Positions 24,260 through 35,496 of a stretch of 37,916 nt of DNA are shown one piece after another (within the stretch, counting starts at the first letter, position 1; each line of letters starts with the position of its first letter). The DNA is from a virus. The notes beneath the pieces are model-generated. The model made no database searches and was not told the origin of the DNA. It saw only the letters and a list, made by a program, of their open reading frames with translations. The stretch covers positions 1 through 37,916 of IMG/VR virus record IMGVR_UViG_3300021960_000208, one strand, 5' to 3'. The position numbers and the translations under genes were made by a program.

Positions 24260-24682
24260 CTAGCTAAGTTCAATCTGCTTAGCTTTCTTTTCTTCCGGAA
24301 TATCCCGTCTGAGCCGAATGCTTAAAATGCCATCTTCGAGCTTTGCTTCGACAACATTAACGTGCTCGCCCAGAAGAAACATTTTCTTGAACGGGCGAAA
24401 CGCTATGCCAGCGTAGATCACATTGGCAATATTGTCGTCCTTTTTAACACCGTTAGAGACGACAGACAGAACGTCCTCCTTCACCTCAACGGCGATGTCC
24501 TCTTTGCCAAACCCAGCGACAGCCATCTTAATTTCGAAGCTGTCTTCCCCCAGCTTGATCAAACTATGCGGAGGAAAGTTCTGGTTGGCAGACATCACTT
24601 CTGCCACTTTTTGCATATTGTCAAAAAGGCGCTCGAATCCAAGGGCGGAATCGGACAGAGTAGGAAACATCGAAAGAGTCAT
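24260..24682 (-). CDS. small heat shock protein (Hsp20/IbpA-like)
   Basis: A 140-residue chaperone. The frame is open upstream to 24721, but the ATG 24682 has AGGGGAGA four bases before it and opens like IbpA (SALGFERLFDNMQ). The alpha-crystallin domain spans about 37-128 (FEIKMAVAGFGKEDIAVEVKE in pieces, AYA-like AGIAFRPFKKMFLL, and GILSIRLRRDIPEE). A C-terminal I-x-L-type tail (KQIEL) is kept. Hsp20 proteins hold unfolding clients and are known in some marine phages, where capsid folding help has been proposed. It is the last gene of the leftward operon and has its own likely promoter and a folded leader. Confidence 0.9.
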   Translation of the reverse strand: MTLSMFPTLSDSALGFERLFDNMQKVAEVMSANQNFPPHSLIKLGEDSFEIKMAVAGFGKEDIAVEVKEDVLSVVSNGVKKDDNIANVIYAGIAFRPFKKMFLLGEHVNVVEAKLEDGILSIRLRRDIPEEKKAKQIELS

Positions 24683-24730
24683 GGTTCTCCCCTTTGGGCA
24701 AGAAGTTATGAGGTCCGACATGGCACCTCA
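24683..24730 (-). promoter_or_regulatory. hsp20 leader with two hairpins, RNA-thermometer candidate
   Basis: On the minus strand, TGAGGT (24730-24725) pairs with ACCTCA (24714-24709). A second hairpin then buries the ribosome site: CUUGCCC (24702-24696) faces GGGGAG (24692-24687) across an AAA loop, giving three C-G pairs, a G.G opposition, U-A and U.G. Alternatively UUCU (24704-24701) pairs AGAA (24688-24685). A ribosome site held by a UUGC element with a G.G mismatch in front of an hsp20 gene is the layout of ROSE thermometers. Folding is by eye. Confidence 0.45.
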
Positions 24731-34289: not shown

Positions 34290-34364
34290 CTATCTCCGTA
34301 AGTTAGGTATTAGCATCACCGCAGCAAAAAAGACTAGCAAAAGAATTTCCAGGTCACTAATCAT
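34290..34364 (-). CDS. possible 24-residue single-pass membrane peptide
   Basis: The frame MISDLEILLLVFFAAVMLIP ending NLRR has an acidic start, a 15-residue hydrophobic core and a basic end, a correct inner-membrane topology. Its ATG lies 8 bases inside the end of the DUF6378 gene, and its stop is 8 bases before the next ATG. This fills an otherwise empty gap. No good ribosome site is visible, so it would depend on coupling. Short, so chance cannot be excluded. Confidence 0.4.
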   Translation of the reverse strand: MISDLEILLLVFFAAVMLIPNLRR

Positions 34365-34632
34365 TTTGAGACATCTCTGCTGCTAGAGCGGCGTATCCAC
34401 AAATGTCAACGTAGCTGTCGTCCTTGTGCTGGTTCATAACTCTCGCGATCTTAAGCAGCATCATCATAACAGCCACATCTGTCGGGGACAACTCTATAGC
34501 CGCTGACCGGGACAGATAGATGGTCCATAGGTCTGCGATCCGCAGGTGGTTTAAGTAGGCGTCTCCGTAATCGCTTTTGCGATCTCCGTTGATTAACTGC
34601 TGCGCCTGTTCTAAACATTTGTCTCTATTCAT
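34357..34632 (-). CDS. DUF6378-like phage protein
   Basis: A 91-residue helical protein. The open frame continues upstream through the 18-bp repeats in a meaningless frame, so I start at ATG 34632 (MNRDKCLEQAQQLINGDRK). The pattern NGDR..DYGDAY.NH.RIADLW..YL......PTDVA.MM.L.KIAR......DDSYVDICGYAALA is that of DUF6378, a family seen in many phages, with all-helical makeup. The function is not established; the acidic and helical layout recalls small nucleotide-handling proteins, but this is a guess. Confidence 0.8.
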   Translation of the reverse strand: MNRDKCLEQAQQLINGDRKSDYGDAYLNHLRIADLWTIYLSRSAAIELSPTDVAVMMMLLKIARVMNQHKDDSYVDICGYAALAAEMSQND

Positions 34633-35086
34633 CTTTCTGTTTCTCCCTGTCATTCTCGGCCCTGATCTCGTCTGCAAGAGCATCGCCATAGACCCGAGCG
34701 GTGCCAGAGACCCGAGCATTGCCAAAGACCCTAGCATTGTCAAAGACCTGAGCATTGTCAAAGACCTGAGCATTGTCAAAGACCCAAGCATTGCCAGAGA
34801 CTAGAGCATTGCCAAAGACCAGAGCAGTGTCAGAGACCCGGCTTCGGCTGCCAATGAATGGGATCAAGTCGGCCTGACGCATTTCCATCTGATCCATGCG
34901 AAACTTAATTGCTTCGACCGGATCAGGTAGGTCGATTGGAAATGCAGTCTTCTCATAAATTTCAGCTAGCGTAGCCAGCACTTCCAATTCATCAGCTTCG
35001 GGCGTCCCCTCCTCGGCATCTATAAGTTCATCAATGCGAGCAAGCGTCTCCTGATAATCTCTTTCGGATTTGATAAGTTTAACCAT
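34625..35086 (-). CDS. HigA antitoxin N-domain fused to hexapeptide beta-helix repeats
   Basis: A 153-residue chimera. Residues 1-85 follow HigA-type antitoxins: SERDYQETLARIDELID, EGTPEADELEVLATLAE, PIDLPDPVEAIKFRM, then the first HTH helices DLIPFIGSRSRVS. Where HigA would continue with VLN.KR (recognition helix and rest), it switches at 84 into nine hexapeptides: VSDTAL, VFGNAL, VSGNAW, VFDNAQ twice, VFDNAR, VFGNAR, VSGTAR and VYGDAL. A charged tail (NDREKQKDE) ends it. DNA binding is likely lost, while the repeat should form a left-handed helix or solenoid. It follows the HigB-like gene in TGATG overlap. Confidence 0.75.
   Translation of the reverse strand: MVKLIKSERDYQETLARIDELIDAEEGTPEADELEVLATLAEIYEKTAFPIDLPDPVEAIKFRMDQMEMRQADLIPFIGSRSRVSDTALVFGNALVSGNAWVFDNAQVFDNAQVFDNARVFGNARVSGTARVYGDALADEIRAENDREKQKDE
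34680..34841. repeat. nine 18-bp tandem repeats coding for hexapeptides
   Basis: Nine imperfect 18-bp units start at 34680, 34698, 34716, 34734, 34752, 34770, 34788, 34806 and 34824, each near GCATTGYCAAAGACCYGA on the plus strand. The units starting at 34734 and 34752 are identical, a sign of recent duplication. They lie wholly inside the HigA-like gene and each codes for one hexapeptide. They are not a CRISPR: there are no spacers. Confidence 0.9.
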
Positions 35087-35283
35087 CATACTGTCTCCGC
35101 ATTGATCTTGTCGTATTCGGCGTGGGTTCCGACCCAACGGATTCGGATAATCCCGGCTGCATAATTCACCTGTGTAACCAGGCGGTAGTCGTTCCCTTTA
35201 ATGTTAAACACCACCCTTCCTGTCTTCAGAATGCTGGCCGTCGCATACCTGGCTTTGATGTCCGGCGGCTCCCCAAGGGCCAT
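35086..35283 (-). CDS. HigB-type toxin, N-terminally shortened
   Basis: A 65-residue protein with the C-terminal two thirds of a HigB (RelE-fold mRNA interferase) toxin: PPDIKARYATASILKTGRVV, FNIKGNDYRLVTQVNYAAGI and IRIRWVGTHAEYDKINAET. The family normally has about 95-100 residues, starting with two helices (a KAW...V..A.W....D pattern) that are absent here. A stop lies 18 bases before the ATG in frame. No good ribosome site precedes the ATG. Toxin-first order and overlap with the antitoxin gene are as in higBA. It may be inactive, or may be a reduced partner of the unusual antitoxin. Confidence 0.75.
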   Translation of the reverse strand: MALGEPPDIKARYATASILKTGRVVFNIKGNDYRLVTQVNYAAGIIRIRWVGTHAEYDKINAETV

Positions 35284-35298
35284 AGACAGAGATCGTGA

Positions 35299-35496
35299 TC
35301 ACCCTTTTTCTCCTATCTCGTTGACTAAATTCTGAAGTCGGTTTGCTGCTTCGGAGAGCTTCGAGAAGTCAGACATAAACATATCGCCCTCCATCTCCCA
35401 CAGATTGGTGACTGGTCCTCTGATCATTGGTGCTATGCGTTTGATAAACTCCTCTAAAGTTACGTTCTCGCGGTAATCCCATCGGTAGGTGGTCAT
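35299..35496 (-). CDS. small phage protein, unknown
   Basis: A 65-residue protein (MTTYRWDYRENVTLEEFIKR, WEMEGDMFMSDFSKLSEAAN, helix LQNLVNEIGEKG). No family recognised. The ATG overlaps the stop of the upstream gene (ATGA), and the gene ends 15 bases before the shortened HigB. The end might have replaced the missing HigB N-terminus during rearrangement, but no similarity to it is visible. Confidence 0.55.
   Translation of the reverse strand: MTTYRWDYRENVTLEEFIKRIAPMIRGPVTNLWEMEGDMFMSDFSKLSEAANRLQNLVNEIGEKG

Follow-up and report, generated by a model that had tools for sequence, protein, structure and literature searches.

Genes and features at the locus

The window (the whole stretch of DNA analysed, from an aquatic phage, 37,916 nucleotides, IMG/VR record IMGVR_UViG_3300021960_000208) carries two overlapping or adjacent frames at positions 34625-35283 on the minus strand, encoding products of 65 aa and 153 aa. 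The upstream frame is a truncated HigB toxin gene, higB', and the downstream frame is a chimeric gene whose product starts as a HigA antitoxin and continues as hexapeptide repeats. The features of the site are listed below from upstream to downstream.

35299..35496, minus strand: up65, a resident phage gene of 65 aa upstream of the site, whose stop adjoins the putatively acquired segment; assigned by 88% aa identity in sister phages L011 and L013 and by its place beside the same slot in most relatives
35086..35283, minus strand: higB', HigB toxin without about 36 first residues, 65 aa; assigned by PF09907 and alignment with full-length HigB
35261..35269, minus strand: 5' edge, the 9-bp word GCCGCCGGA, matching L011 1081-1089 in the leader of the sister hexapeptide gene
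34625..35086, minus strand: higA'-hexapeptide chimeric gene, 153 aa; an alternative ATG at 35089 overlaps the higB' stop
34832..35086, minus strand: HigA residues 1-85, comprising three N-terminal helices, the first helix of the helix-turn-helix (HTH) and the start of the recognition helix
34829..34839, minus strand: 3' join, GGGTCTCTGAC, the same in L011 1413-1423 within the sister hexapeptide gene; RVS(D/E) codons in HigA
34678..34840, minus strand: repeat array of nine 18-bp/hexapeptide repeats, YdcK-type beta-solenoid
34625..34677, minus strand: resident C-terminal tail ALADEIRAENDREKQKDE, common to the stand-alone hexapeptide protein of the sister phages
34357..34632, minus strand: resident downstream DUF6378 gene, 91 aa (PF19905, 2.4e-29), whose start overlaps the stop of the chimera

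A purine-rich GGAG lies a few bases 5' of the higA start, and higB' has no good site of this kind. In both the window and L011, DUF6378 begins before the hexapeptide gene has ended, within its final codons. Elsewhere in the same phage, the product of 24260-24721 (minus strand) resembles by eye the small heat-shock protein Hsp20, and Pelagibacter phage HTVC103P also has an Hsp20 gene near its polymerase.

The two halves of the chimera and the truncated toxin

The chimeric frame is open across the join, with no internal stop. Its residues 1-86 matched the HigA-type phage families phrog_1373 ('transcriptional regulator', 3.8e-12) and phrog_11202 (4e-18), the N-terminal residues shared 49-60% identity with annotated plasmid HigA antitoxins, and the family profile of this part connects to E. 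coli/Shigella HigA (5ifg, 5ycl). The original prediction that the N-terminal 85 residues of HigA are kept was thus borne out by the profile search proposed as its check. The similarity ends at RVS, inside the recognition helix as had been predicted, and Glu86 and the later helices are absent. The position after RVS is Glu in 110 of 110 close homologues and Asp in the chimera, so that the junction carries the residue of a hexapeptide unit instead of the invariant Glu of HigA. Of 21 HigA positions that are strongly conserved, the chimera retains 19, and one of the two exceptions is the junction itself; continued selection also fits this count, and the two known copies of the chimera are identical over the HigA' part. 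A complete HTH DNA-binding domain was not found in the chimera. A HigA that lacks its last helices and the distal half of the recognition helix should be unable to bind its operator. Since these elements are missing here, the chimera most likely does not bind operator DNA.

Residues 87-136 form the nine in-frame hexapeptides that had been predicted, with the unit consensus V-x-[GD]-[ND]-A-x, and matched Pfam B_solenoid_ydck (PF18836, 4.9e-10) at 39 bits, above the cut-off of 30. At the DNA level this half is an 18-bp tandem repeat of 9.1 copies. Hexapeptide genes of the same kind in the Vibrio breoganii phages MG592418, MG592510, MG592511 and MG592579 bear 'CRISPR_spacer' features, labels that were probably triggered falsely by the 18-bp repeats.

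Directly upstream, higB' matched PF09907 (5e-23), which agrees with the predicted toxin-antitoxin gene order. The match spans profile positions 19-74 of 74, and alignment with six full-length plasmid HigB proteins showed that about 36 N-terminal residues are gone, a truncation that the original prediction did not mention. An in-frame stop belonging to the preceding gene lies five codons 5' of the higB' ATG, so no longer higB' can be read. A full-length RelE-like domain was not found in higB', and the locus holds neither an intact toxin gene nor an intact antitoxin gene, each having lost its outer end. A HigB without a third of its length should no longer be toxic, and this one is probably inactive.

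The locus resembles HigBA type II modules with a C-terminal HTH in HigA (E. coli/Shigella type: 5ifg, 6kml, 5ycl) in the N-terminal helical domain and first HTH helix, in having the toxin gene first and the antitoxin gene overlapping it or close behind, and in the C-terminal part of HigB. It differs from them in the missing start of HigB and in the hexapeptides that replace the remaining recognition helix and last helices of HigA. With the YdcK-type left-handed beta-helix proteins of phages (PF18836; PDB 2f9c/2pig for YdcK) the chimera shares nine units encoded by 18-bp repeats, and its tail is that of the YdcK-type protein of the sister phages, whereas the MTTFDFGYGPVPAHKHSNGGGW... module and about half of the repeats of the resident protein are replaced by HigA residues. 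HigA proteins with a C-terminal HELAH metallopeptidase-like domain (L062-L065, L082, L084) likewise combine a HigA N-terminal part with a C-terminal addition, but their addition comes after an intact HTH, while the join in the chimera breaks the HTH. The HELAH-motif domain, of about 280 aa, follows a complete HTH in the closest HigA relatives (L062, L063, L064, L065, L082, L084, L144 and L145) and resembles by eye an ImmA/IrrE metallopeptidase.

Sister phages, a second contig and the origin of the join

A second IMG/VR contig, L001 (4819 bp), comes from the same virus (99.8% identical, about 0.2% substitutions) and has both the 5' and the 3' join at identical bases. Its repeat array (1165-1451) is 126 bp, or seven units, longer than that of the window (34678-34840), so the repeat number varies between strains, as one would expect for an 18-bp tandem repeat. 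Repeats are classic points of misassembly, and several hexapeptide contigs end in or at the array (L248, L275 and L276), which would suit an assembly chimera of two unrelated reads joined at a repeat. Nevertheless, the 5' join lies outside any repeat, and the non-identical contig L001 reproduces both joins in spite of its substitutions and its other array length, which makes an assembly error unlikely. It would have had to happen twice over, at identical positions and in one instance away from a repeat, which is highly improbable, and we consider this explanation close to negligible.

The neighbouring primase, DUF6378 and hexapeptide genes led to four sister contigs (L011, L013, L225 and L248) whose DNA is about 91% identical to the window, the primase being 95% identical in L011 and L013. 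In all four, the corresponding site beside the same flanking gene is taken up by a hexapeptide gene that stands alone, and none shows a trace of higBA there. The encoded protein has its own N-terminus (MTTFDFGYGPVPAHKHSNGGGW...) and is 156 aa long where the contig is complete; the C-terminal tail of the chimera is also present in L011, L013 and L225, and L248 stops inside the array. DNA homology between window and sisters breaks off at 35298 and returns at 34840. In more distant relatives the slot is empty or filled by unrelated small genes, and higBA was found at this site in no relative examined. The sister-type N-terminus MTTFDFGYGPVPAH.HS recurs in other phages, some of them unrelated at their flanks, so the sister form is the older and the window form the derived one. 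This does not agree with the original picture of a toxin-antitoxin pair rebuilt by an added solenoid: with sisters lacking higBA, the solenoid gene is the resident and the higBA piece the newcomer.

Several further observations concern the slot and its hexapeptide gene. The slot, which lies between two conserved small genes (34632 and 35299 in the window), varies in content: across the phages compared, including the relatives L015-L054, it is empty or holds the chimera, the hexapeptide gene, a zinc-ribbon-like ORF or a small ORF with a signal-like N-terminus. The leader of the sister hexapeptide gene (L011 1042-1108) can be read as a short hydrophobic peptide with a GTG start (VIKTIAVVAAVTAAAGGHYDYF), perhaps a remnant of the small secreted ORF of L027 and L031-L033. 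Two unrelated viral contigs, L275 and L276, have about 90% DNA identity to the start of the sister hexapeptide gene and stop at the repeats, a likeness that, judged from the sequences, points to this gene having spread recently among phages.

The higBA piece has lost its two outer ends, namely the first 36 or so codons of higB and the last 30 or so of higA, of which the first two thirds remain; this fits the capture of one operon fragment of about 430 bp. Both edges of the fragment lie on short matches (9-11 bp) to sister sequence. At the 5' edge, the match of GCCGCCGGA to the sister leader sits exactly where HigB homology starts, and a shared word of this length occurred in 0.65% of shuffles. 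At the 3' join, GGGTCTCTGAC encodes RVS and the first bases of Asp/Glu and is identical in the sister array, in accordance with the predicted short homology; in 131 HigA genes, the RVSE codons ranked 5th of 100 positions in similarity to the sister array, which is only suggestive. Joining at short matches is the likely route, given the matches at both edges. The donor higBA was not found in IMG/VR, in phages and plasmids, or among the best 80 of 582 candidate loci from genomes, where the best HigA had 66% aa identity, and the precise limits of the captured fragment are therefore putative. Among the loci compared, the nearest HigA relatives come from delta-proteobacterial/Proteobacteria MAGs (61-66%), with unsupported tree placement. 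The GC content gave no signal for a foreign piece (50.1% against 50.7% for the genome).

Based on these comparisons, we regard it as highly probable that a higB'-higA' fragment was captured in frame into the resident hexapeptide gene by recombination at short matches. A bacterial higBA fragment of about 430 bp would have entered the variable phage slot by illegitimate recombination at these matches and displaced the leader and the 5' half of the resident gene, and the in-frame join would have given HigA(1-85), nine hexapeptides and the resident tail. Translation probably begins at the higA start and continues into the overlapping DUF6378 start. The result would be a shortened hexapeptide protein with a helical N-terminus, possibly self-associating and HigB-binding. 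We infer the joining mechanism, the translation and the loss of toxin and DNA-binding activity. Because of the overlap with DUF6378, coupled translation may require a frame that is open to its end; such a need would favour in-frame joins and offers a simple reason, which we infer, for the survival of this one.

Gene order and frame would also fit if a complete higBA followed by a hexapeptide gene had once stood at the site and internal deletions had fused higA and cut higB, and either join could be a deletion scar. However, this course of events needs two separate deletions, one removing the 5' end of higB and the other the 3' end of higA together with the 5' half of the hexapeptide gene; moreover, HigB homology starts right beside the upstream gene, and higBA stands here in no relative. 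We therefore consider it improbable in comparison with capture of a single fragment.

Predicted structure, possible function and significance

AlphaFold predicted the helical half of the chimera with high confidence and the repeats with low confidence (pLDDT 41-48 and 55-66 for the hexapeptide part in two predictions). The top Foldseek matches in the PDB were HigA structures, with E-values that are weak because half of the model is unreliable, and Foldseek returned no solenoid matches for a model whose repeat half is of low confidence; a search of a viral structure library with the model was uninformative. The structure prediction called for originally thus upheld the HigA half, and left the repeat half at low confidence. 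Dimerisation of E. coli HigA involves helices a1-a4, and its toxin contacts are made by a3-a6 (PMC7340258); the chimera keeps counterparts of these helices, which makes binding of a host HigB by the remaining HigA helices conceivable and possible in principle.

On this basis the chimera might be a functional phage antitoxin, in which the helices neutralise host HigB and the solenoid takes the place of DNA binding and gives stability or multimerisation. The counterparts of a1-a4 and a3-a6 (PMC7340258), the retained conserved HigA positions and the confidently predicted helical part speak for such a role. On the other hand, the neighbouring toxin is truncated, so that there is no cognate pair for the chimera to act in, the gene is known from just two near-identical copies and has been kept by no relative, and an accident at short homology accounts for the junction. 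We judge this role improbable, and still slightly less probable its specific form, a non-repressing, solenoid-stabilised antitoxin against host HigB-family toxins during infection. The new mode of dimerisation, DNA mimicry or host-toxin neutralisation proposed originally is speculation; none of the results points to selection for such a function, and a role as a new antitoxin is not supported. Rather than a novel type of antitoxin, the chimera most likely represents a chance product of gene mosaicism.

The form is rare. This HigA region occurs in 169 loci of the comparison; in 165 of them the gene goes on as usual, and the other four are the window and records of L001. In the phage and plasmid collections, in IMG/VR and among the 80 best of 582 genome candidates, the search for both halves in one chain found L001 alone and no other HigA-hexapeptide fusion. 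Literature searches for HigA with hexapeptides or antitoxins with a left-handed beta-helix found nothing relevant, consistent with the original statement that no such HigA had been described. The chimera is thus real and rare, and most likely produced by a known process, phage gene mosaicism. It provides a well-resolved case of new-gene formation by in-frame capture, documented by a sister site lacking the fragment, an empty site, short matches at both edges and a second strain, and it suggests that phage hexapeptide arrays, whose 18-bp repeats keep the frame and vary in length, can easily accept in-frame joins.
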